A DNA stretch of 24,382 nucleotides from a virus, in the IMG/VR virus record IMGVR_UViG_3300042924_004826, positions 1 to 24,382 of that record. One strand, written 5' to 3'. A program made the translations under genes and the position numbers. A model generated the notes under the pieces. The model saw only the letters and a program-made list of their open reading frames with translations. It did no database searches and was not told the DNA's origin. Positions 1 through 24,305 of the stretch are shown here, piece by piece (position 1 is the first letter of the stretch; every line of letters starts with the position of its first letter).

Positions 1-142
1 CGCCGCGCTTGCGACCGGGAAACTGCAAGAAGTTGAGCCCTATCCGGGCGAGGGCCTGTGCATCGTCTCGCGTGCCGCGATCGTTGACGTCGCGCCGTGG
101 CCCCATCCGCTCCCTCGCGACGTGCGCTAGTGGTGACGCTAC
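1..142 (+). repeat. Direct repeat, copy 1 (other copy 672-813)
   Basis: Bases 1-142 are the same as 672-813 (offset 671) except for one silent change at 115/786. The repeat covers the 3' end of the small gene and the first 12 bases after its stop; the copies then diverge abruptly (TTGCGG at 143, GCGCTGG at 814). The left limit is hidden by the window edge, so the true unit is longer. Confidence 0.9.
2..130 (+). CDS. 3' end of a duplicated small conserved phage protein (truncated by window edge)
   Basis: An open frame runs from the window edge to TAG at 128-130 and encodes the last 42 residues of the same protein that is complete at 520-801. The nucleotides match 672-801 with a single difference (T at 115, C at 786), which is silent (Pro CCT/CCC). 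The start lies outside the window. The identity continues 12 bases past the stop, so this is a recent duplication of gene plus downstream flank, not two old paralogues. I cannot tell whether the upstream part is intact. The GTG at 130-132 overlaps its TAG and opens the next reading frame. Confidence 0.75.
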   Translation, partial: AALATGKLQEVEPYPGEGLCIVSRAAIVDVAPWPHPLPRDVR

Positions 143-369
143 TTGCGGGGGCGACGCCGCGGTCGCGGTCGTGGTCGGGGCCGCGGTCATGGTCGTGGTC
201 GTGGCCGTGGTCGTGGTCGTGGTCGGGGTCGCGGTCGGGGTCGCGGTCGTGGTTGCGGTCGCGGCCGCGGTCGCGGTCGTGGTCGGGGCCGCGGTCATGT
301 TCGTGGTCGTGGCCGTGGTCGTGGTCGTGGTCGGCGTCGCGGTCGGGGTCGCGGTCGGGGGCAGAATGA
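130..369 (+). CDS. Putative Ser-Trp/Ser-Arg dipeptide-repeat microprotein 1
   Basis: A 79-residue ORF starts with the GTG that overlaps the TAG of the preceding gene (TAGTG) and ends in TGA at 367-369, inside an ATGA. It begins MVTLLAG and is then almost wholly S-W, S-R and S-G dipeptides with a few Pro, Leu and Cys. Three downstream ORFs (801, 953, 1069) share the start pattern M-(V/I)-(T/A)-L-(L/R)-A-G and the same dipeptide composition. An in-frame GTG at 97 is another possible start. No function is recognised. Ser-Arg-rich tracts in other proteins often bind nucleic acid, which is only an analogy here. The GGNCGN array could be translated in other frames (Gly-Arg, or Val-Ala-Gly) or not at all. 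Unlike the later members, no gene start with a clear ribosome-binding site overlaps its stop; the next good start is at 520. Confidence 0.4.
   Translation: MVTLLAGATPRSRSWSGPRSWSWSWPWSWSWSGSRSGSRSWLRSRPRSRSWSGPRSCSWSWPWSWSWSASRSGSRSGAE
155..363 (+). repeat. GGNCGN hexamer array 1
   Basis: About 35 imperfect copies of a six-base unit GG(T/C)CG(T/C/G) run almost without a break. A higher-order repeat lies on top: 161-249 and 269-357 match at an offset of 108 bases (18 units) with two mismatches (192/300 and 227/335). This suggests growth by slippage plus block duplication. Nearly all variation falls on the third and sixth base of the unit. Confidence 0.9.
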
Positions 370-519
370 CCGCGCCGCGGCGGCGCATAGCCCCTGGTCG
401 TGGTCGACGTGGGGAGGCCAGCACTACGCGATGCGCTCAAGCGCTGGCCCGCATCTGTACGCCGGATCGTGGTCCGGCGGGTTTCAAGTGTCAAAGAGCA
501 AAACAACAAAGGAGAGACC
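370..519 (+). other. Spacer between array 1 and the small conserved gene
   Basis: No convincing gene of its own is seen in this 150-base spacer. The last 30 bases are clearly A-rich compared with the surroundings and carry AAAGGAGAG at 508-516, a good ribosome-binding site four bases before the ATG at 520. A promoter may lie here, but I see no clear -35/-10 pair. An ORF from ATG 366 runs through in another frame and then out of frame through the gene at 520; I do not count it as a gene. Confidence 0.5.
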
Positions 520-801
520 ATGATCACCAGCAGCGAGCACCCTTACACCATCGGAGACGCCGTGATCGTTCGCACGGTGACGATGTACTACACGGGCCGA
601 ATTGTCCGCGTATACCCTGGCGAGTTGGTTCTGTCCTGCGCCGCTTGGATCGCGGACACCGGCCGCTGGTCCGCCGCGCTTGCGACCGGGAAACTGCAAG
701 AAGTTGAGCCCTATCCGGGCGAGGGCCTGTGCATCGTCTCGCGTGCCGCGATCGTTGACGTCGCGCCGTGGCCCCATCCGCTCCCCCGCGACGTGCGCTA
801 G
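520..801 (+). CDS. Small conserved phage protein of unknown function (93 aa)
   Basis: The ATG at 520 follows GGAGAG and gives 93 residues, ending TAG 799-801. The protein has alternating hydrophobic strands and conserved-looking blocks: HPYTIGDAVIVRTVTMYYTG, then LVLSCAAWIADTGRW, KLQEVEPYPGEG and IVDVAPWPHPLP. From memory this matches a family of short phage proteins with a 'HPY.IG....IRTVT...TGRL...LVL..AAWIADTGR' pattern, whose function I do not know; this was not searched. The likely all-beta character suggests a small structural or binding protein, not an enzyme. Its 3' end is duplicated at 2-130. The stop overlaps the next start (TAGTG), so it heads the coupled chain that leads to ssb. 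Confidence 0.85.
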   Translation: MITSSEHPYTIGDAVIVRTVTMYYTGRIVRVYPGELVLSCAAWIADTGRWSAALATGKLQEVEPYPGEGLCIVSRAAIVDVAPWPHPLPRDVR

Positions 802-813
802 TGGTGACGCTAC
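672..813 (+). repeat. Direct repeat, copy 2 (other copy 1-142)
   Basis: This is the second copy of the 142-base repeat described at 1-142. It covers the 3' half of the small conserved gene and the first 12 bases downstream. The near-perfect identity in a region otherwise rich in slippage products argues for recent duplication or ongoing gene conversion. Confidence 0.9.
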
Positions 814-956
814 GCGCTGGATTCTGGACTGCGGCGCCGCGGTCGTGGTCGGGGTCGCGGTCGCTGTTGCGGACGTGGTCGCGGTCGTGGTCGCGGTCGC
901 GGTCGCGGTCGGGGTTGCGGTCGGGGTCGGGGTCGGGGTCGGGGGATGCGCCATGA
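801..956 (+). CDS. Putative Ser-Arg/Ser-Gly dipeptide-repeat microprotein 2
   Basis: The GTG at 801 overlaps the TAG of the gene at 520 and opens a 51-residue ORF, MVTLRAGFWT followed by S-W, S-R and S-G dipeptides, ending GDAP and TGA at 954-956. The TGA lies in an ATGA whose ATG (953) starts the next ORF. A GTG at 768 in the same frame is an alternative start inside the previous gene. Relative to microprotein 1 the first codons are the same (MVTL), because the flanking DNA is duplicated, and the body differs. Function is unknown. The C-terminal S-G run is encoded by the G-quadruplex motif at 923-945. Translation has not been shown; the support is the exact stop/start coupling on both sides and the shared N-terminal motif. 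Confidence 0.45.
   Translation: MVTLRAGFWTAAPRSWSGSRSLLRTWSRSWSRSRSRSGLRSGSGSGSGDAP
840..945 (+). repeat. GGNCGN hexamer array 2
   Basis: About 17 units of the GG(T/C)CG(T/C/G) hexamer are interrupted once near 863-875. The last units become homogeneous GGGGTC, which forms the G-run motif listed separately. The array ends at the ATGATC start of microprotein 3. Confidence 0.85.
923..945 (+). promoter_or_regulatory. Canonical G-quadruplex motif over a ribosome-binding site
   Basis: Three GGGGTC units followed by GGGGG give four G-runs of at least four bases with two-base TC loops, a textbook intramolecular G-quadruplex pattern on the plus (coding, mRNA-like) strand. The last run (941-945) is also the only Shine-Dalgarno-like purine run in front of the ATG at 953, at a spacing of seven bases. 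Folding in RNA would hide it, and a ribosome translating the ORF at 801 would open it. Folding and regulation are inference. Confidence 0.55.
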
Positions 957-1072
957 TCGCCCTACGCGCTGGACGAGACGTCTCCGGATCTTGGTCGCGG
1001 TCGTGGTCGGGGTCTTGGTCTTGGTCAAGCTCGCGCCGCCGGTCGCGGTCGTGGTCGGAGGATGCGCCATGA
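953..1072 (+). CDS. Putative Ser-Trp/Ser-Arg dipeptide-repeat microprotein 3
   Basis: The ATG at 953 overlaps the TGA of the previous ORF (ATGA) and gives 39 residues: MIALRAGRDV, a body of S-W, S-R and S-G dipeptides and the ending SEDAP. TGA at 1070-1072 again overlaps the next ATG. The sequence around its start and the start at 1069 is the same 20-base block (953-972 and 1069-1088), so microproteins 3 and 4 arose by duplication of a start cassette. The purine run in front of this start is GGGGG. No known domain is recognised. It could be a non-functional by-product of repeat expansion, but the kept frame, start and stop argue for translation. Confidence 0.45.
   Translation: MIALRAGRDVSGSWSRSWSGSWSWSSSRRRSRSWSEDAP
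991..1061 (+). repeat. GGNCGN hexamer array 3
   Basis: A shorter and more degenerate array lies between the two copies of the 20-base start cassette. It includes GGTCTT units and a non-repeat patch near 1025-1040. It ends in GGAGG, which is the ribosome-binding site for the ATG at 1069. Confidence 0.75.
1057..1061 (+). promoter_or_regulatory. Ribosome-binding site for microprotein 4
   Basis: GGAGG lies seven bases before the ATG at 1069, ideal for a Shine-Dalgarno site. It differs by one base from the GGGGG in the equivalent place before 953 (A at 1059), turning a hexamer-repeat unit into a consensus site. This is one of the better arguments that the ORF at 1069 is translated. Confidence 0.6.
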
Positions 1073-1257
1073 TCGCCCTACGCGCTGGCCGCACCGCCCC
1101 GGGGCCGGAGTCGTGGTCGGGGCCGCGGTCGCGGTCGTGGTCGGGGTTGTGGTCGCGGTCGTGGTCGTGGTCGCGGCCGTGGTCCTCAGCGCGCTCGCGA
1201 CTGTCGCTCACACCTATTAGTCAAGCATTTTGGAATAACAACGGAGAGAACACATGA
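1069..1257 (+). CDS. Putative Ser-Trp/Ser-Arg dipeptide-repeat microprotein 4, coupled to ssb
   Basis: ATG 1069, with GGAGG seven bases upstream, opens 62 residues: MIALRAGRTA, a body of S-W, S-R and S-G dipeptides, then a non-repetitive tail LTPISQAFWNNNGENT. The TGA at 1255-1257 overlaps the ATG of ssb at 1254. The tail is encoded by the A/T-rich stretch with the ssb ribosome-binding site, so it may simply be read-through of a leader. This ORF has the best start signal of the four repeat ORFs. The position directly in front of ssb suggests co-expression with DNA replication or recombination functions. No known family is recognised. Confidence 0.5.
   Translation: MIALRAGRTAPGPESWSGPRSRSWSGLWSRSWSWSRPWSSARSRLSLTPISQAFWNNNGENT
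1108..1186 (+). repeat. GGNCGN hexamer array 4
   Basis: Thirteen or so units of the same hexamer family lie in the body of microprotein 4. The array decays into unique sequence at about 1187. The next 65 bases become A/T-rich and lead to the ssb start. Confidence 0.85.
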
Positions 1258-1607
1258 TCCACTGTACTATCGTCGGTCGTCTCGGGAAAGACGCCCGTGC
1301 CATCCCAGGCGCCACCGGCGGCGCGTCGTTCTCGGTCGCCTGCGACCACGGGTTCGGCGACAAGCGCGTCACCACCTGGGTTGACGTGACCCTCTGGGGT
1401 AAGCGCGGCGCCGGAATGTTGGAACGCGGGCTACTGCCGAAGGGGCAGGTCGTCGCCGTTCGTGGCGAGCTTTGGACCGAAGACCGCGAGGGCAAGACCT
1501 GGGTGAAGGTCAACGCGGACGAGGTCGAGCTGGTCGGTGGCAAGCCGGCCGGCTCGGACGCCGCCCCCGCGCGCAAGCCCGCCGCCGACGATGAGATCCC
1601 TTTCTGA
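1254..1607 (+). CDS. ssb: Single-stranded DNA-binding protein (SSB)
   Basis: The protein has 117 residues. It begins with the OB-fold strand MIHCTIVGRLGKDA, continues with ASFSVACD, the block TWVDVTLWGKRG (residues 41-52), LPKGQVVAVRGEL and WVKVNADEVELV, and ends in a short linker and the acidic tip DDEIPF. The OB fold of roughly 100 residues plus acidic Phe-ended tail is the hallmark of bacterial and phage SSB, which coats single-stranded DNA and recruits partner enzymes through the tip. The linker is very short compared with host SSBs, as is usual for phages. GGAGAG lies seven bases before the ATG. The stop overlaps the following start (TGATG), and the start overlaps the stop of microprotein 4 (ATGA). 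Confidence 0.96.
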   Translation: MIHCTIVGRLGKDARAIPGATGGASFSVACDHGFGDKRVTTWVDVTLWGKRGAGMLERGLLPKGQVVAVRGELWTEDREGKTWVKVNADEVELVGGKPAGSDAAPARKPAADDEIPF

Positions 1608-2623
1608 TGCGCGACGCCATGCTCACAGCCCGCAGCGCGGGCGAAGACTCTCACCAGGTCGCGGCGGACAAGCTCGACGCCGCGATCCGCCTTCGCTTCG
1701 GGTGGCGAGACCGGTGGGAGCTGGACGCCATCGCCCGGTCAGTCGAGGCGCATCGGGCCGGCGTCTTGACCGCGCTCCGCCGGCTACAGACCGCCGGAGC
1801 TTGTGTCCCGGTCGGCGATGTGTGGTGGTCAGTCGCCGCGTTTCGCCGGCAGTTCGGCGAGCCGCCGACTCCGCCGACGCGTCAGGTCGCCGAGATCCCC
1901 GCCCCTCCCGGGCGACGGAAGGTCGTCACGCCAGCCGCCGCCGCCGAGCCCGCGCCGACGACGTGGCCACCTGCACCGGAGCGGGCACCGGCACCGGAGA
2001 GGCCGACGGCACCGACGCCGAAGCCGGCACCGACGCCCAAGCCCAAGCCGCCGCCCGAGCCCGAGTCGCCCGCGCCGCCGTCGACCGACGGGCCGCCAGA
2101 TCCCGGACTCGGTCGCCGTATCGTCGCCTGGGTGCTGGCCCAGCCCGAGCCCGTGACGATCGCGCAGATCGCCGCCGGCCTTACCGTCAGTCGCGACCGC
2201 GTCGCCCGTGAGATTGCACGGCCTTCAGCGGCGAGAATGATCGGTAAGAGCGGCACAAAACGGAACCCGTGGGACCCCGCGTCGGGCTTCCGGTACTGGC
2301 GACCGACGCCCGAAGACCTGCCCGCGGCCGTCCCGCTTGCCGAAGCCCAGGCCGAGATCAAGCGCGGGACGCGCCACCTCGTCGCCGGGACCGCGGATCC
2401 CGCGATGCTCGCGGCCATCGCCCGACACCCAGGGCAGGGCGTCGATTGCCTACCGACGTCGATGGACGTCTGGTGGGCGCCGGACTCCTACGGTGGACTG
2501 CGCCTCCGGGTGCAGCTGTCGTCGCCGACGACTCCGCCGACCGCCGTCCGCATCATCGCGCAGGTTCCGATCTTGGCGCCGCGCACCGTCGTTGACCTGA
2601 CTATCCGAGAGGAGCAAGCGTGA
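1607..2623 (+). CDS. Pro-rich protein with two winged-helix-like segments, function unknown
   Basis: The protein has 338 residues. Residues 36-80 look like a helix-turn-helix with a following wing (LDAIARSVEAHRAGVLTALRRL, then CVPVGDVWWS). Residues 85-165 are a Pro/Ala/Lys-Pro linker that contains PTPKPAPTPKPKPPPEPE. Residues 168-232 hold a second winged helix (IVAWVLAQPEPVTIAQIAA, SRDRVAREIA, ending in the wing GFRYWRP). Residues 240-338 form a further globular domain with strand-like segments. Such a layout suggests a DNA-binding protein, for example a replication initiator, a loader or a regulator, and the position between ssb and an exonuclease fits replication. No catalytic motif is seen. 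The start overlaps the ssb stop, and its own TGA overlaps the next start (GTGA). Confidence 0.8.
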   Translation: MRDAMLTARSAGEDSHQVAADKLDAAIRLRFGWRDRWELDAIARSVEAHRAGVLTALRRLQTAGACVPVGDVWWSVAAFRRQFGEPPTPPTRQVAEIPAPPGRRKVVTPAAAAEPAPTTWPPAPERAPAPERPTAPTPKPAPTPKPKPPPEPESPAPPSTDGPPDPGLGRRIVAWVLAQPEPVTIAQIAAGLTVSRDRVAREIARPSAARMIGKSGTKRNPWDPASGFRYWRPTPEDLPAAVPLAEAQAEIKRGTRHLVAGTADPAMLAAIARHPGQGVDCLPTSMDVWWAPDSYGGLRLRVQLSSPTTPPTAVRIIAQVPILAPRTVVDLTIREEQA

Positions 2624-3351
2624 GCACGATCTATCTTGATATCGAGACCGTCCCCGTGGACGCCCGCCCTGGCATGACAGAGCCCCCCGGGCGATGGATG
2701 GCCCGTGCCCCTGACGAGGTCAAGCGCCTGAAGGCTGACTCTGACGCCGACTTTGCCACGAAGTGCGCCGACTGGGCGCGCGAGCAGTGGCAGAAGGAGA
2801 GCCTCGACCCAGTCGGACGGGCGCCTGCGATCGGCGGTCGCGTGCTGGCGATCGGCGTGCAGTCGGGCGACGACGACGTCACGGCCTGGACGTCCTACAT
2901 CGAAGGCGACGTCCTGACGGAGCTTGAGACGTACCTCGACGGCCATTGCGGGCGACACTGCCAGATCGTGGGGCACAATATCCGCGGCTTTGACGCGCCC
3001 TTTCTGGCGGCCCGTGCGCTACGTAGCCCGACGAAGTACCCCTTGATCCTTCGCGCCTTCATGCCTCGCGACCGTTGGGGCCCCGGCCCGCACATCGTCG
3101 ACACGATGCAGCTGATCCCCGTGCCGTCGTACGGTGGACGCCCGACCGGTACCTCGCGGCTGTCCGACTGGGTGTCGTACCTTGACCAGGCCGTGGCCGA
3201 AGATCAGATCGACGGCTCCCAGGTGCTCGGCCGGTACCTCGCCGGCGACCTGGAGGCGATCGTGCGCCACCTCATCGCCGACGTGCAAGAGGTCCGCATC
3301 CTACATCGTCTTGTCGAGGCCGCTCGAGGTCAGGGCCGCCAGGTCGAGTAA
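2620..3351 (+). CDS. DEDD-family 3'-5' exonuclease (PolB exonuclease-domain-like)
   Basis: The protein has 243 residues and starts at GTG 2620, with GAGAGGAG upstream. Exo I is YLDIETVP, giving acids D7 and E9. Exo II is VGHNIRGFDAPFLAARAL with D125. Exo III is RHLIADVQEV with D221. These four acids hold the two metal ions of DEDD exonucleases, which remove nucleotides from 3' ends. The overall form resembles the stand-alone 'PolB exonuclease-like' phage proteins. In that group exo III is normally YxxxD; here the residue four before D221 is His (H217). Role: proofreading or recombination processing next to SSB. Its 3' end overlaps the convergent endolysin gene by 22 bases. The assignment of family is firm; the substrate is inferred. 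Confidence 0.88.
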   Translation: MSTIYLDIETVPVDARPGMTEPPGRWMARAPDEVKRLKADSDADFATKCADWAREQWQKESLDPVGRAPAIGGRVLAIGVQSGDDDVTAWTSYIEGDVLTELETYLDGHCGRHCQIVGHNIRGFDAPFLAARALRSPTKYPLILRAFMPRDRWGPGPHIVDTMQLIPVPSYGGRPTGTSRLSDWVSYLDQAVAEDQIDGSQVLGRYLAGDLEAIVRHLIADVQEVRILHRLVEAARGQGRQVE

Positions 3352-3788
3352 GGCCCGCCCGAGCCCGAAGGCGCGGACGATCGTAGCAGGTCGCCCCGCG
3401 CCTTCGCCGCTCCCCTGGGATGGCCCAGGTGCAGGAAGTTGCCCGACGGGTAGACGATGGCCTGATCCAAGGTGGGCAACTGCCCCGCCCGATGCGCCTC
3501 ATAGATCGCGCGCATCGCCGACTCCACCGGGATCCCCACCGGGACCAGGTCGACCGCGTCGCCCGTCAGGTGGGCGGACGAGGACGAGCCGCGCACCGCG
3601 AGGTTGACCCCCGGGCTCCGGTATGCCGAGGTGATGCGGAGCGGGACGCCGAGGATCGCGCGCACCGGCTCCAGGAGACCGTGGGCGAGGGCCTGCAGTC
3701 TCGCAAGCTCCACCGGGCCGGGGATGTTCTCAAGGCCCGTGCTGGTTTGGGTGAGTTCTTGCAGCGTAAAGTTAGGGGAAAGCTTCAC
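3330..3788 (-). CDS. Endolysin, peptidase M15 family (zinc D,D-/L,D-peptidase type)
   Basis: The protein has 152 residues from the GTG at 3788, chosen because it overlaps the TGA of the upstream gene (GTGA). Residues 1-15, MKLSPNFTLQELTQT, are the typical opening of short M15 peptidases. Residues 54-58 (SAYRS) and SSAHLTGDAVD (71-80) carry the zinc ligands H73 and D80, and FLHLGH (118-123) supplies the third ligand, H120 or H123. The enzyme cuts peptide bridges in peptidoglycan to release progeny. No signal peptide is seen, so it needs the holin. It is the last gene of the late operon, directly after the holin-like gene. A frame extending to 3866 is a shadow of the upstream gene. Confidence 0.9.
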   Translation of the reverse strand: MKLSPNFTLQELTQTSTGLENIPGPVELARLQALAHGLLEPVRAILGVPLRITSAYRSPGVNLAVRGSSSSAHLTGDAVDLVPVGIPVESAMRAIYEAHRAGQLPTLDQAIVYPSGNFLHLGHPRGAAKARGDLLRSSAPSGSGGPYSTWRP

Positions 3789-4096
3789 TTCTGCACCGCG
3801 TCCCAGCCGATCAGCGCCGCGAAACCGGTCACGATCGAGACGAGCGACGTGAGCGCGTGCTTCCACAAGTCCGAGCTCGCCGCCACCTTAGCGGACTCGG
3901 CGCCCTGATGGGCCGCCTGCTGCGCCACCAGCGCGTCTAGCAGGGTCTTCGACTGATCCTGGAAAGCCTTAATCAGCCGGTCCTCTCTCGCTTGCGACGC
4001 CGAGCGGTGCTCTTTGAGTTCCTTCTGCAGCCCGTTCAGGTCTCGCTCCACCGCCTGGAGGCGCGACAAGATCAGCGCCGTTCCGTCCTCACTCAT
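3785..4096 (-). CDS. Holin-like membrane protein with coiled coil (XhlA-like layout)
   Basis: ATG at 4096 follows AGGGGGG and gives 103 residues. Residues 8-60 are amphipathic and heptad-like (LSRLQAVERDLNGLQKELKE and onward), predicted to be coiled coil. Residues 81-97 (ALTSLVSIVTGFAALIG) are a single membrane-spanning helix, followed by a short tail WDAVQK. This N-terminal coiled coil plus C-terminal membrane helix is the layout of XhlA-type holin or holin-accessory proteins. Its neighbour is the endolysin, which starts on the last bases of this gene. Role: to permit endolysin release or to signal membrane permeabilisation; this is inferred from layout and position. Confidence 0.7.
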   Translation of the reverse strand: MSEDGTALILSRLQAVERDLNGLQKELKEHRSASQAREDRLIKAFQDQSKTLLDALVAQQAAHQGAESAKVAASSDLWKHALTSLVSIVTGFAALIGWDAVQK

Positions 4097-13300: not shown

Positions 13301-13567
13301 GCCGTGCCACGCGCCCGCCGCCGAGTCCCTCCACACGAAGCCCGCCGCGGTCCGGTTGGATCCGGCGAACCCCCCGCGAGTCGTCTTGATCTCCAGGTAG
13401 CCAGAAGCCGGCGGCGTTCCGGCCGTTTCCAGGCCCGCGGCCTCTGCGCTCCCTGACGGCTGACCCGCAAGCCCGCCCGTCTGGGTGTAGGAGCTCGCCG
13501 CCGCGACGATCGACGCGGGCGTCAACCGGGGGTCAGGGTAGATCAGTCCGCGGAGGTCGGTGGTCAT
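10349..13567 (-). CDS. Large tail protein with sialidase-like Asp-box beta-propeller
   Basis: The protein has 1072 residues; the ATG at 13567 overlaps the tape-measure stop (ATGA). Residues 110-440 look like a beta-propeller: RPHVIELASGAVLLATH, then two Asp boxes, SDDDGATW at 198-205 and SRDDGSKW at 369-376, each with the S-x-D-x-G-x-(T)-W pattern. Residues 460-640 look like a jelly-roll carbohydrate-binding or LamG-like domain, and 650-1072 are mixed beta. Asp-box propellers are found in sialidases and in non-enzymatic binding proteins. I see R115 but cannot identify the full arginine triad, so binding and not hydrolysis is the safer reading. It probably touches host surface glycan. Confidence 0.78.
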   Translation of the reverse strand: MTTDLRGLIYPDPRLTPASIVAAASSYTQTGGLAGQPSGSAEAAGLETAGTPPASGYLEIKTTRGGFAGSNRTAAGFVWRDSAAGAWHGLDEPWRVAGWEWVVRRANGGSDSDTRPHVIELASGAVLLATHRATASAQRVDVRKLTPGVGWGAAVTASSGSDIPTASHPALLQLPSGRVLLYHWTTASDAAYLRVMASDDDGATWQTVADRVGLPLAIAAGTYTLGRLRAAYSQGTVVVFASLLDNVTSRYVAQQWASDANGYTLTEVILGDSATAASADGEKARAVEVVAHPGGGFVMTYYHPPSLEWRARQLSSAWTPYINGSEPVEIPSFTTADPTQSALWYVGRTLYILTPWTSGGATYAQIAYSRDDGSKWFYGRAWTGDADLDPSQLTACQVRGQTVFVGRVATTTQAFDTDSLIAHYAGGWSSPTWPALYRETYRQQPAATTWIGVENPDNVGYTRLATGGVPTEAVTATGWSITTGAAVAVHYAVNLAASVLNAVVAEVDLAPSSGGATTADRIALVVNQGNGTTDYRLSIRFTTTAFRVWDTNGGTALATITTSTTAGIRVRVLMRGSSCTVWYRSTGAASQSAGAKTWILAAASTTLVANASSPLANGVVRWGHVAASAAVSEWRMAQVAELVDSAFLTIRLVGYELDDNTGPYASQAPIGADMTAGQMLPGLFGASADLPGGTRVRLLDGPTGAGDTWTSVAQYTYGVDKLHPLTIASPRREWRATQDAADEYIAWALPDTASNAVLSETGSVGMYLGRANFRQADLAGWDGAAWTTLGTLDLAAGLTSLPFVRRGDSIVVDVSAASPTAAAWLHRGELVGGTVAFAGGVSRRIARSTSGRWTSGTLSPTIYLETVSGAEPTSGTIDIWRPAGVLVVNAVGSYRRVRVTFRAAATVEDYLRAGVCLIGPWLPLEPYSWGRSLELIPDVELVDVGGGGRVSRVRGPARRTVAVSWREGIPTVGLYDGAAPPYLTGSHAIDGRAVGADTPSLLAGLIDELDGAASPVVLVGALRSGVGTATQSSTEATIYGRITGTLSREVVIGDELWSEVQRVGELLIEEEL

Positions 13568-15438
13568 CGGGTGCGCCTCCCGGGTACAGTAGCCCCATCC
13601 AGCGCCCGCGCCAACGGCGTGTCTAACCGCAGGTGGTCTCGCAGGACGATCGACAGGTCGCGGTGCCGGTAGCGCATCACGAGTTCGTCGCCGCTTCCGC
13701 CGCCCTGGCGTCCGCGATTCAGGGCCGCCAGGCCGTCCGGTCCGAGCGCGGACATCCCGCGGCGGGTGACGACGCCTTCACCCGGGGAGGCCTGGATCAT
13801 GCGATGATCGGCTTCGACGACGCCACCGATGGCAAAGCTCGGCGGCGACTCGGACGCCACCTGCGCGATCTGCAGGGCCGTGGGCGGGCCGACGACCGCG
13901 GCGGCGAGGATAGGCGCGAGCCACCCGGACGGCGCGAAGGTCGCCAACGCGTTCATGTACGCGACCGCGCCGGACATCACGATCGACGAGATAGCCGCCC
14001 CCTGACGCAGCGCCCAAAGGCGCTTGGCCTCTTTCTTCTCGCTATCGCTCAGGTGGCCCATCGACTCAATCTGCTTGTCGATCGCCCACACCGCGAGGTC
14101 CGCCACGCCGCTGTAGACTTGATCCGCTAGGCTTAGCTGGTTCAAGATGTATTCAGTCTGGGCGTCTTTGAGTTCCTTGGTTACCGCCTTCTGTATCTCG
14201 CTAAAGGCGACCCACTGATCATGCGCTTGCTGGTCCGCCGCCGCCTTGTCGGCCGCCAGTTTCGCGGCTTCTTCCGCCCGCTTCGCGTTGACCTTGTCCT
14301 CTTCCTCCTGACGAGCCGCGGTCATCTCCGCGAGGACCGCCGCCCGAGCCGTGTCCGCGAGCGCGTGATCTTGCGACACCGCCTCAAGCTCGGCGATCTT
14401 CGCGATCTTCTCATCGTACTTCGCGATCATCTTCTCTTCGCTCGTCATCGTCGACTCGGACGCCGACTGCAGGATCCCCTCAAGCGCGGCGGTCGCGGCG
14501 GCCTGTTTGGCGAGCGCTTGCTCGTGCTCCTTCGAGGCGTCGCCCGCTTTGCGCTGGCTTCCTTCGAGGCTCTTCAGGTGCTCATCTAGACCGGCCGTGA
14601 TCTCGGTGGTCGACGTCGCGGCCTTCGCCAACTCGAAGAAGCTCTTGCCGGTCTTCGTCGTCGCCTCGGCGACTTGCTCCTGACCACCCCACAGGTCCGC
14701 CAGGGCCTCGCGAAGGTTCGTCACGTCGCCGGACAGCACGGCTAGGACCGGGTGGGCGTCGGTCCACAGACGGGTCAGGGTTGCGAAACGTTCCGCCGTG
14801 ATCCCGAAGTGATCGGCGAGCCACGCCCAGTCGTCAATCGACTGCGAAACGGCGCCCGCGATATCGTTAAAAGCCGGGAGAAACGCCTCCGCCATAACCA
14901 GCGTTAGCCGGTCCATCTGAAGAGACAGCTTGTTCATCTCGACGTTATACTCGGCGACCGCGTCGCGCTGCTCCTGGGTGATGAGCGACCCGCGGCCCAT
15001 CTCATCCATGCGCGCGATCGCCTCGGTCGCGGCGTCCCCGAGCGCCACCATTGCCCCGGCGTAGGCGGCGACCGCCCCGAGGGCCGCCGTTACCCCTCCG
15101 ACGGTCCCGATCGCCGCGGTCCCCATTGCGCCGATCGCCCCGGTCGCGCCCTCTGCAGTGTCGGACAAGTCGCCGAGGGCCCCGGTCGCCGCGCCCAACG
15201 GGCCGCCCATCACCCGTCCGAGCCCTTCGATAGCCTTTAGCGCAGACTGCGTCTTCTTGGCGCTGTCCTCCTGCTCCCTTGCCAGCTTGTCCGCTGCCTT
15301 CTCGGCGACCTTGTAGGCCTTCGCCAGCTTCTGGATCCGCTTCTCGGTCTCCTCGACAGACGCGCCGCCGGCCAGCATCTGGCTTTTAAGCTGGTCCATG
15401 TCGGCAATGAACTGAAGCCGGATCTGCTCGGTGGCCAT
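13564..15438 (-). CDS. Tail tape measure protein
   Basis: The protein has 624 residues. The first 70 residues are coiled coil (ADMDQLKSQMLAGGASVEE and onward). Residues 90-135 are a Gly/Ala-rich hydrophobic stretch, 280-440 is a long charged coiled coil, and 478-525 is a second hydrophobic segment. The C-terminus has FAIGGVVEADHRMIQ followed by PGEGVVTRRGMSALG, an ending I know from many tape measures. It sets tail length and is ejected with DNA. At about 0.15 nm per residue the tail would be roughly 90 nm, short for a siphovirus. It follows the chaperone region as expected, with one extra gene in between. Confidence 0.92.
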   Translation of the reverse strand: MATEQIRLQFIADMDQLKSQMLAGGASVEETEKRIQKLAKAYKVAEKAADKLAREQEDSAKKTQSALKAIEGLGRVMGGPLGAATGALGDLSDTAEGATGAIGAMGTAAIGTVGGVTAALGAVAAYAGAMVALGDAATEAIARMDEMGRGSLITQEQRDAVAEYNVEMNKLSLQMDRLTLVMAEAFLPAFNDIAGAVSQSIDDWAWLADHFGITAERFATLTRLWTDAHPVLAVLSGDVTNLREALADLWGGQEQVAEATTKTGKSFFELAKAATSTTEITAGLDEHLKSLEGSQRKAGDASKEHEQALAKQAAATAALEGILQSASESTMTSEEKMIAKYDEKIAKIAELEAVSQDHALADTARAAVLAEMTAARQEEEDKVNAKRAEEAAKLAADKAAADQQAHDQWVAFSEIQKAVTKELKDAQTEYILNQLSLADQVYSGVADLAVWAIDKQIESMGHLSDSEKKEAKRLWALRQGAAISSIVMSGAVAYMNALATFAPSGWLAPILAAAVVGPPTALQIAQVASESPPSFAIGGVVEADHRMIQASPGEGVVTRRGMSALGPDGLAALNRGRQGGGSGDELVMRYRHRDLSIVLRDHLRLDTPLARALDGATVPGRRTR

Positions 15439-22507: not shown

Positions 22508-23977
22508 TCACCCGAAGCGGACTACAGAGGAAGACGACCGACGGCGCGACCGCTCGCCGAAGATCCAAGGGTCAAGGGCGTAGCGCAGGGCGTCCACCGG
22601 GTCTTTATAGTCCGAGTCGCGCATATCCCACCGCTCCATGGAGTCGATAAGCCGCCGGCACCGCGGGTGCACGGTCAGGCGACCCGACGACACTAGGTGG
22701 TAGACGTATCGCGCCCCGATCCGCAGACTACCAGCGCGGCCCTCTCCGCGTTTTACGGTTTCAATCTGCACCGGGGCCCCGTTGCCGATCTGCCCCGTGC
22801 GAAACAATTCTTTCGCGATGTGCGCCGCCAGATCCTTGTTGCTCTTCTGACCGCCGGTCCCGGGCATGTGAACGCGGTCGCCGTGCGCAAGGTCGACGTC
22901 GGACCACCGGAGCCCGTGGCGCTCCAGCATGGAGAGGATCCCCTCGGCATCGTGACGCGGTTGGGCGACGCCGGTCGCGTCGACGTACTCGTCGATGACG
23001 TGCACCACCGGCGCCTCGGAGTCGCGTTCATCGACGTAGAGCAGGAGAGCGATCTGCTTGCCGGGTCGGTCGCCGTGGTCAACGCCGATGGCGACGGTAA
23101 ACTCTGGCGCGTCGGGCAGGGCCGGCGAGATATTCGCCGAGCACCATCGGCTGAAGTATCGATCGGTGGTACCGCCCCTCCATGCGCCGTCCACCACGAT
23201 CGGCCGCTCCCAGTCGTCGCACAAGTCGCCGAGTTTGGCGATCCACGCTGCATCCTTGGGGACACCTGACGCCGTGGTGACTGGCTTCGACGTGCCGACC
23301 GGGATGAGCTCCGCTTCGGTCAGCGGTCGCCAATGGTCGTGGATGGTCCCGGCTTCGCAGAGCGAGCGCAAGTGCTCGATCGTCTCGTCGGGTGCGTTGA
23401 TCGGGGTCAAGCTCATGAGCAGGACGCCGCCGCGGTCCTCGAGGCGCTTCGCCGCTTCGACCAAGAGGCGGGTCGAGCTCGGTGGCTCGTCAAAGAGGAC
23501 CACATCAATCGACGCGCCGGCGAAGCTGATCGTATCCTGGCCCGCTGTCTTGATCCGAATCAATGACCCGTTGCGAAACTTGACAACTGGCGACTTGATC
23601 GGGGCGAAGCCTTGCTCCACTGTGTAAGCCGTGCGCGGGTCAAGCTCGCCCCAAGGCAGGAGCGCGGCCAGTTTTTCCTGGATCCCAAGGCTCTGCTGCC
23701 AGCTTGCGCAGATGATGTAGGCTTGGATCGGCGGAGGCGGCACGGCGACGCCCAGGGGATGGCGCCCGCGGCACCGGCCGATCACCTCGGCGAGGGCCGG
23801 CGTGGTCTTGCCGATCGTCTGGTTGCCCGCGCGGATCAGCTTCGCCCAGTGGGTGTCGGCCAGGAACGCCCTCTGCAGGGGCAGCCACCGCATGGCGGCG
23901 ATCGGGTCGCGTGCGCGGTCCGCCGCGGCGGCCTGCACCCCGGCGAGGATCGCGCGCATCGCCTCGACGTCGATCAC
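22508..23977 (-). CDS. terL: Terminase large subunit (ATPase and nuclease)
   Basis: I use the GTG at 23977, just after the small-subunit stop, giving 489 residues; the ATG at 23959 is also possible, and the frame further upstream lies within the small-subunit gene. Walker A is GNQTIGKT (51-58), Walker B is VVLFDE (159-164), and the coupling motif is SLTP (189-192). The nuclease part has IGVDHGD (D300), HVIDEY (D329) and KDPVDALRY (D462), which are the metal-binding acids of the RNase H-like fold. The enzyme cuts the concatemer and pumps DNA through the portal. The Walker A with Asn-Gln after Gly and the motif spacing are typical of large terminases. Confidence 0.95.
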   Translation of the reverse strand: MIDVEAMRAILAGVQAAAADRARDPIAAMRWLPLQRAFLADTHWAKLIRAGNQTIGKTTPALAEVIGRCRGRHPLGVAVPPPPIQAYIICASWQQSLGIQEKLAALLPWGELDPRTAYTVEQGFAPIKSPVVKFRNGSLIRIKTAGQDTISFAGASIDVVLFDEPPSSTRLLVEAAKRLEDRGGVLLMSLTPINAPDETIEHLRSLCEAGTIHDHWRPLTEAELIPVGTSKPVTTASGVPKDAAWIAKLGDLCDDWERPIVVDGAWRGGTTDRYFSRWCSANISPALPDAPEFTVAIGVDHGDRPGKQIALLLYVDERDSEAPVVHVIDEYVDATGVAQPRHDAEGILSMLERHGLRWSDVDLAHGDRVHMPGTGGQKSNKDLAAHIAKELFRTGQIGNGAPVQIETVKRGEGRAGSLRIGARYVYHLVSSGRLTVHPRCRRLIDSMERWDMRDSDYKDPVDALRYALDPWIFGERSRRRSSSSVVRFG

Positions 23978-23978
23978 G

Positions 23979-24305
23979 TCACCGCCCGAAGTGCACGAGG
24001 CGCGGGCGACGACGCTGCTCGATGGCCTCGGCGAGGCGATCGACGAAGGCATCGGGCAACGAGGGCACGAGCGCGATCACCTGATCCAGCATGGCGTCGG
24101 GAGTCTGCGCCCGATCGGCCTCAAGCGCGGCGAGCTCGGCCTCCTCAGCGGCGCGGAGATCGGCCTGCAAGTCGCGCTTCGTACGGAGCAGGCGCTCGGC
24201 GGCGACGTAGCTGCCGGCCTCGGTCGCGGAGCGCTGCAGCTTGTCGGCCTCGTCGAGCAGGGCGCGCAATTCGCGCACAGTGCGGGCGATCTTGGGTCGA
24301 GCCAT
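23979..24305 (-). CDS. Probable terminase small subunit
   Basis: The protein has 108 residues: MARPKIARTVRELRALLDEA, then a coiled coil (residues 25-65) and a helical C-terminus, LDQVIALVPSLPDAFVDRLA, ending in basic RRRPRLVHFGR. The position directly in front of the large subunit and the coiled-coil core fit small terminases, which recognise the packaging site as a ring. No clear helix-turn-helix is visible, so the call rests on position. GGAGGAG lies nine bases before the ATG. Confidence 0.65.
   Translation of the reverse strand: MARPKIARTVRELRALLDEADKLQRSATEAGSYVAAERLLRTKRDLQADLRAAEEAELAALEADRAQTPDAMLDQVIALVPSLPDAFVDRLAEAIEQRRRPRLVHFGR

Follow-up and report, generated by a model that had tools for sequence, protein, structure and literature searches.

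Does an unbroken chain of overlapping stop and start codons show that a row of repetitive ORFs is translated, and with which gene do the encoded microproteins belong? This question is raised by positions 520–3351 of a viral sequence (IMG/VR record IMGVR_UViG_3300042924_004826, positions 1–24,382; the window, i.e., the whole 24,382-nt stretch analysed), in which seven consecutive ORFs are joined by six overlapping junctions at 801 (TAGTG), 953, 1069 and 1254 (ATGA), 1607 (TGATG) and 2620 (GTGA). All six junctions were found, and the seven ORFs contain no internal stops. A first-pass annotation had considered such a run unlikely if the repeat ORFs were untranslated and had taken it to support translational coupling of the microproteins to ssb. 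We noticed that a precursor of the chain lies 5' of this range, where a truncated small gene leads through TAGTG into another repeat ORF. The features are as follows:

2–130, + strand: second copy of the Sm-like small gene, 3' part only, cut by the window start; stop codon TAG at 128–130
130–369, + strand: Ser-X microprotein ORF 1 (VVTLLAGATPRSRSWSGPRS...), joined to the truncated small gene by a TAGTG junction
370–519, + strand: spacer; the equivalent DNA in relative L002 sits directly 5' of ssb
520–801, + strand: small gene (ATG to TAG), 93 aa, class A, predicted Sm/LSm fold (family alignment A2, model and PDB matches)
801–956, + strand: Ser-X microprotein ORF 2 (GTG to TGA), overlapping the small gene at TAGTG
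953–1072, + strand: Ser-X microprotein ORF 3 (MIALRAGRDVSGSWSRS...), ATGA overlap
1069–1257, + strand: Ser-X microprotein ORF 4 (MIALRAGRTAPGPESWS...), ATGA overlap, GGAGG upstream
1254–1607, + strand: ssb (PF00436, E 1.2e-7; phrog_44, E 1e-16), with its own GGAGAG tract
1607–2623, + strand: neighbouring ORF with no assigned function (no match in Pfam and PHROG scans)
2620–3351, + strand: neighbour, possible PolB-type 3'-5' exonuclease (PF10108, E 0.0058, weak and below cut-off; phrog_403, E 0.0026)

The two small-gene copies are 97% identical (window 1–149 vs. 672–820), the array of ORF 1 is nearly the same as that of relative L004, and window 1–525 aligns with positions 1891–2386 of L002. 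Our explanation, which we hold with evenly balanced confidence, is that 520–1257 and the truncated twin at 2–369 represent a phage module encoding a 93-aa Sm/LSm-like protein and coupled Ser-(Arg/Trp/Gly) microproteins.

The junctions by themselves carry little of this argument. The 953 and 1069 junctions are found in two copies of a single 116-nt cassette and therefore count as one event. A gene that starts with ATGA or GTGA always closes some ORF in another frame; beyond base 300, the + strand contains 114 ATGA/GTGA-type sites, 37 of which have at least 150 nt of open frame upstream, and the GGTCGN repeats are stop-free in every frame. When positions 807–1250 were shuffled with dinucleotide composition preserved, 801 and 1257 were still bridged by an unbroken chain in 6% of shuffles. 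Given this frequency and the copied cassette shared by the 953 and 1069 junctions, the stop/start chain alone is weak evidence for translation. Thus, the number of junctions did not bear the weight placed on it, while the conclusion drawn from it, that the repeat ORFs are translated, is backed by comparative evidence.

In the Ser-X ORFs, Ser occupies every second residue and alternates with Arg, Trp and Gly in nearly equal shares. The Ser codons are mixed (TCG 814, AGC 401, TCA 252 and TCT 236 in total), and their choice differs between phages. At the conserved positions of the class A leader block ([I/V]LRxG[Y/F][D/E]), variation is found mainly at base 3, as illustrated by the Gly codon with entropies of 0.21, 0.21 and 1.96. 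Among 31 arrays defined by nucleotide sequence, the Ser frame had 5 stops, all located at the array 3' end, and the other frames had 27 and 43. The shares of Arg, Trp and Gly did not depend on GC content (p 0.15, 0.48 and 0.29), while the use of AGG vs. CGG tracked it (rho -0.51, p 6e-6). Array length varied in multiples of 6 nt. Untranslated simple sequence, for which neither frame preference nor amino-acid constraint is expected, does not fit these arrays. Because of the mixed Ser codons, the base-3 variation of the leader, the off-frame stops and the GC-independent residue shares, the repeat ORFs look like real translated genes that evolve as protein-coding sequences. Of the first overlapping starts, only some 50% are preceded by a Shine-Dalgarno (SD)-like tract, so the level of Ser-X expression is uncertain.

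On the codon, leader and frame tests, the reading of the arrays as pure DNA repeats unrelated to genes was rejected. A subtler proposal is that the arrays function at the level of DNA or RNA, with GG every 6 nt serving as a quadruplex, a Chi-like site, a PAM-rich decoy or a recombination hot spot, and that the open frames are a by-product. Consistent with it are the X codons, nearly all of which are NGG even in AT-rich phages of 33–45% GC, a bias that protein-level selection alone does not require; the variation, which is concentrated at a single position of the unit (0.55 vs. 0.08–0.15 elsewhere); and the near identity of the first array of the window and the adjoining gene end to those of a 108-kb phage, with flanks of only about 70% identity, which resembles a recombination site. 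Such elements would not, however, be expected to be restricted to Ser codons from two unconnected codon families, nor to hold the Arg, Trp and Gly shares constant while synonymous AGG/CGG usage follows GC content, and they need no conserved leader, start codon or frame. We therefore regard this proposal as improbable.

Equally doubtful is the suggestion that the act of translation matters rather than its product, i.e., that runs of NGG codons slow or drop ribosomes and thereby tune downstream genes or occupy host translation. The X codons coincide precisely with the NGG set, and NGG codons near gene starts are suppressive through peptidyl-tRNA drop-off (PMC12204400). The drop-off was described, however, for 5' codons and not for runs of 40–100 codons, and the genes 3' of the module differ among phages. 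First-position substitutions of TGG (Trp) would yield the identical codon set, and the GC independence of the amino-acid shares also speaks against an effect of codons only.

Comparison of environmental phages places the repeat ORFs with the small gene. Within 400 nt 3' of the small gene, 76 of 84 non-redundant loci have a hexamer array that can be read as (Ser-[Arg/Trp/Gly])n, and in 51 of these 76 the Ser-X ORF overlaps the small-gene stop (40 by -4 and 11 by -1). Junctions from one repeat ORF to the next overlap in 28 of 44 cases. A second family of small genes, class B, is followed by a Ser-X ORF in 25 of 29 loci, with the same repeats behind a leader of a different type, xxKQK(Y/W)R; 12 of these 25 junctions overlap. 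Counting against the module, seven loci with sufficient downstream sequence have the small gene and no repeat ORF. In an independent scan for arrays, a class A or B gene was present upstream in 57 of the 87 arrays with at least 1 kb of upstream sequence and mixed Arg/Trp/Gly, compared to 2 of the remaining 88. The phages carrying the module span 33 to 72% GC. By these comparisons the module is widespread, pairing a predicted Sm-like gene with Ser-X ORFs in scores of unrelated environmental phages, and the repeat ORFs apparently multiply as cassettes that usually keep their overlapping junctions. The recurring overlaps fit translational coupling inside the module.

Some Ser-X ORFs lie in other frames, with gaps of 0, 1, 2, 4, 7, 10 or more nt before the start, by which frameshift fusion of the small protein with the repeat frame was rejected as a general rule. 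Several pure SRSRSR (AGCCGG) arrays were also rejected as family members, as they are the antisense of Gly-Ser arrays that follow DUF6948 genes. The single match among isolated phages was MW202573.1, in which the overlapping 43-aa ORF is annotated as a CDS, and a search of plasmids gave no match; thus, no cultured model was found.

The small proteins of both classes are confidently predicted to adopt an Sm/LSm fold and to be Sm/Hfq-like. The class A model (pLDDT 94) consists of strands, and its N-terminal helix is not clear; the class B model (pLDDT 90) has a helix and strands. By prediction, this agrees with the fold that defines the Sm superfamily, a bent sheet of five strands after a short helix at the N-terminus. 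With VIA-align, the best PDB match had Z 9.8 and rmsd 2.6 over 70 residues for class A, and Z 10.5 and rmsd 1.8 over 66 for class B, and all the matches listed were Sm/LSm proteins or chains of Sm-containing particles; the Foldseek E-values were modest (5e-3 and 1.3e-3). The two families are homologous (hhalign E 6e-9). Sequence searches gave no convincing PDB homologue. Class A had no match in scans of Pfam, PHROGs and NCBIfam, and Pfam LSM did not exceed the cut-off in any class A protein scanned or in class B, where the best E was 0.067, in 2 of 28 members. In the class A alignment (n = 79), Gly26 is invariant (79/79) and the Sm2-like Arg75 and Gly76 occur in 63 and 43 members, respectively, and the acidic or Asn RNA-binding residues (Asp/Asn) of Sm1 are not evident.

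We propose that ribosomes finishing the small gene would start again at the first microprotein and afterwards at every further cassette, so that each Sm-like protein would be accompanied by several repeat peptides. The small protein may assemble into a ring and bind RNA or ssDNA, the short class-specific leader of the microprotein may dock on it, and the Ser-Arg/Trp/Gly tail would provide in trans a flexible, basic and aromatic arm. Early in infection, such arms could condense or anneal nucleic acid or gather it into a local compartment. The same two genes might instead encode a host-directed, membrane-active or toxic peptide, with the Sm-like protein controlling or neutralising it. One known type of antimicrobial peptide is rich in Arg and Trp, the overlapping two-gene layout resembles that of toxin-antitoxin operons, and the copy variation of Ser-X ORFs is high. 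The Ser-X products showed neither a signal peptide nor any other mark of a toxin, however, and the strict alternation of Ser and the content of Gly are atypical, so we attach little probability to a host-directed role.

The weakest proposal is that of the first-pass annotation, in which the microprotein ORFs, coupled to ssb, set its expression. In the window, ORF 4 does end in ATGA on the ssb start, and it reaches that point solely through an atypical, non-repeat tail that passes through the ssb leader; the overlap is therefore probably fortuitous, and the ATGA itself comes from the Ile codon at the second position of ssb, which L002 has as well. In the closest relative (L002/L003), a gap of 178 nt separates the stop of the repeat ORF from ssb, which is preceded there by a purine-rich tract of its own and in the window by the SD-like GGAGAG. 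Other relatives have no ssb beside the module: the PHROG ssb family was found upstream of the module in 1 of 52 cases and downstream in 1 of 44. Thus, the overlaps recur in relatives within the module and not between microprotein and ssb. The annotation had named as counting against its own claim relatives with ssb directly after the small gene and no junctions lost, which would trace the ATGA sites to one copied cassette; for ssb, the comparison goes most of the way to such a refutation. Gene order suggests that ssb is a downstream neighbour in this phage, outside the conserved module, and a coupling to ssb is very improbable.

Preferring the Sm/LSm-like module, we suggest more tentatively that it represents a widespread, undescribed phage ribonucleoprotein system, in which a Sm-like ring would be furnished with rapidly expanding sticker-and-spacer microprotein cassettes as disordered arms in trans, perhaps forming a condensate, and in which the parallel with DUF6948 would reflect a general phage design. 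With the search terms used, the literature yielded no work on DUF6948 and no description of a Sm-like gene with Ser-X ORFs. Low-complexity hexamer arrays are usually masked, or set aside as non-coding, and those analysed here bear signs of protein-level selection. If the predicted fold is right, many environmental phages bring a Sm-like protein together with dedicated, minimal disordered peptides. On that condition, the module would offer a compact, naturally occurring system for studies of RNA chaperones and bacterial condensates, with disordered arms that differ in number, length and Arg/Trp/Gly composition.

Among known systems, the phage Hfq-like protein gp39 of Adephagia was likewise placed in the Sm/Hfq fold by structure prediction, and the passage describing it mentions no repeat-peptide partner (PMC11373665). 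Hfq itself, a bacterial Sm-like RNA chaperone, shares the predicted fold, and its disordered C-terminal domain acts as an arm modulating the nucleic-acid-binding core (PMC5606850), as in the model proposed here. In contrast to Hfq, the module is phage-encoded, its small protein matched no Hfq family when Pfam, PHROG and NCBIfam were scanned, and its arm is proposed to be a separate, repeated gene product that is basic and Trp-rich, whereas the Hfq arm is acid-tipped. Archaeal and eukaryotic Sm/LSm proteins (PF01423) supply the best PDB matches to the predicted models (Z 9.8 and 10.5) and share the Sm2-like Arg-Gly with most class A members; they differ in the Sm1 pattern and the Pfam matches noted above. 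Ser-Arg or Arg-Gly low-complexity sequence is also linked to RNA-binding proteins in SR proteins and in the RG-rich tails of Sm/LSm proteins, from which the Ser-X products are distinguished by strict alternate Ser, near-equal Arg, Trp and Gly, and their form as separate microproteins with no RRM. The DUF6948 (PF22253) phage proteins belong to another small-protein family with other repeat residues, but their profile weakly resembles that of class A (hhalign E 1.6e-4, probability 50%), and they show the same arrangement of a small protein followed by an alternating-dipeptide hexamer array, (Gly-[Tyr/Ser/Asp/Asn])n.

The seven ORFs and six overlapping stop/start junctions reported between window positions 520 and 3351 by the first-pass annotation are present exactly as described. 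Their unbroken chain had been offered as an argument that the repeat ORFs are translated. The junctions are real, but the chain by itself is weak evidence of translation, because the GGTCGN runs of the window repeats are stop-free in all frames, the junction sites at 953 and 1069 are copies of one 116-nt unit, ATGA/GTGA starts each close some ORF (114 sites on the chain strand of the window, 37 of them preceded by an open stretch of 150 nt or more) and dinucleotide shuffling of window 807-1250 yielded a chain without breaks between 801 and 1257 in 6% of cases.

Stronger evidence came from relatives. The 93-aa small protein as query identified nine IMG/VR loci, and an alignment query identified at least 80, overlapping those nine; bacterial or archaeal MAG contigs supplied eight loci, and a single one came from a database phage. 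Removal of near-identical copies (90% identity of the small protein) left at least 84 loci, and the relatives are metagenomic in every case except one. In 76 of 84 loci, an ORF with serine at alternate residues (Ser-X ORF) lies within 400 nt downstream of the small gene. Between the serines come mainly Arg (661), Gly (534) and Trp (498), and the ORF is degenerate in a few loci (e.g., L015, L043 and L098). The Ser-X start overlaps the small-gene stop in 51 loci (4 nt in 40 and 1 nt in 11), where re-initiation may occur. The same plan is found in the window at 520-1257 and at the truncated second copy (2-369).

The window protein belongs to class A, whose Ser-X leader approximates MNAAILRxG(Y/F)(D/E). 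DNA scans for the arrays themselves revealed a second family, class B (consensus EGLxxLLGERVTLFCxNYIYTGTLxGVN...IVYETG), which is homologous to class A (hhalign probability 95.9, E 6e-9). A Ser-X ORF follows the class B gene in 25 of 29 loci, with a 4-nt overlap in 12, and its leader is of the IRxLKQK(Y/W)R type. With both profiles, a class A or B gene was found upstream of 57 of the 87 mixed R/W/G arrays with enough upstream sequence, vs. 2 of the 88 arrays with a different composition. Because the leader differs by small-protein class while the repeat stays constant, the leader may be the part that docks on the small protein.

Several features bear on translation of the Ser-X ORFs. The Ser codon is phage-dependent (TCG, TCA, TCT or AGC), which DNA-level constraint would not readily explain, and the codon sets of different phages are not connectable via single synonymous steps. 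The leader-block codons for conserved residues (Gly, Asp/Glu, Arg and Ile/Val) differ chiefly at the third base in a set of 30 loci. Across 31 arrays bounded by 6-nt periodicity, 5 stops fall in the Ser frame, at the array 3' end, compared with 27 and 43 in the remaining two frames. How much Arg, Trp and Gly each contribute is independent of genome GC, while the choice of AGG vs. CGG for Arg tracks it (rho -0.51, p 6e-6). As the detector seeks alternating Ser, Ser-frame counts are partly by construction, and the weight is carried by leader codons, stop counts, GC tests and the TCN/AGC contrast, which together make protein-level selection the best reading of these sequences. Such selection does not fully explain why the X codon is nearly always NGG in all arrays, AT-rich phages included, or why within-array variation is centred on its first base. 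Rapid homogenisation via whole-unit gain or loss would contribute to NGG uniformity. Gaps in the alignable array part of the close relatives L038 and L041 are multiples of 6. TCC and AGT are near-absent from all Ser-X arrays.

At least two Ser-X ORFs occur in 23 of the 70 loci having at least 1 kb downstream. Cassette-to-cassette overlap is a recurring design, because 28 of 44 junctions between Ser-X ORFs have a 4- or 1-nt overlap and each phage reuses its own leader (MTTHMM... in L062, MMMIIN... in L089, MNTSILYGAW in L082 and MIALRAGR in the window). The proposed coupling to ssb did not recur: in the closest relative, L002, the Ser-X ORF stops at 2202 and ssb begins at 2381. Elsewhere the module neighbours DNA polymerases, annealing proteins, anti-repressors, terminases and others, with ssb once upstream and once downstream. 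Because the L002 spacer that lies ahead of ssb has its window counterpart ahead of the second small-gene copy, a duplicated module was probably inserted in front of ssb in the window. The window spacer (370-519) is conserved with L002 DNA upstream of ssb, and both contain a short open frame, MVDVGRPALRDALK....

Window 50-250 is almost identical to L004:6195-6390, from a 108-kb phage contig, over the small-gene 3' end and the start of array 1, and identity falls to about 70% over the remainder of the small gene. This sharp mosaic border looks as if it came from recent recombination. The window ORF at 1607-2623 (338 aa, with a long proline-rich middle) had no Pfam or PHROG matches; L002 has a similar ORF after ssb. 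Late genes occupy 3330-24052 on the opposite strand:

3330-3866, minus strand, endolysin-like M15 peptidase
13564-15438, minus strand, tape-measure-like protein
22508-24052, minus strand, weakly terminase-like protein

Sister arrays, (Gly-[Tyr/Ser/Asp/Asn/His])n, lie directly 3' of another small gene matching Pfam DUF6948 (E 8e-32 in L085), which has weak profile similarity to class A. Some phages carry both systems. The DUF6948-type arrays are in these loci:

L085, 1562-1790
L365, 1989
L362, 440
L073, 2756
L225, 4775
L237, L250 (minus strand)

Sequence searches of the small proteins did not reach the Sm/LSm family. AlphaFold2 models had mean pLDDT of 94.1 for class A (79 sequences, window protein first) and 89.9 for class B (28 sequences), and their best Foldseek PDB matches were nearly all Sm/LSm (E 5e-3 and 1.3e-3, respectively; probability 1.00). 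All rows among the VIA-align matches listed were Sm/LSm proteins or chains of Sm-containing particles, the best having Z 9.8 and rmsd 2.6 over 70 residues for class A and Z 10.5 and rmsd 1.8 over 66 residues for class B. An Sm2-like Arg-Gly is found in most class A members. A shared fold is no proof that the small proteins bind RNA or assemble into rings.

Most likely, the small protein and Ser-X peptide would form a single nucleoprotein complex, an Sm-like ring with disordered, basic, aromatic arms supplied in trans, which may bind nucleic acid and might act in annealing or condensation. The Sm fold itself is already known; judged against open-licence papers, we consider the small protein/Ser-X pairing and the repeat peptide to be novel. 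The nearest working analogy for such a ring with arms, as distinct from an established relative, is Hfq, in which a disordered C-terminal domain tunes the Sm core (PMC5606850).
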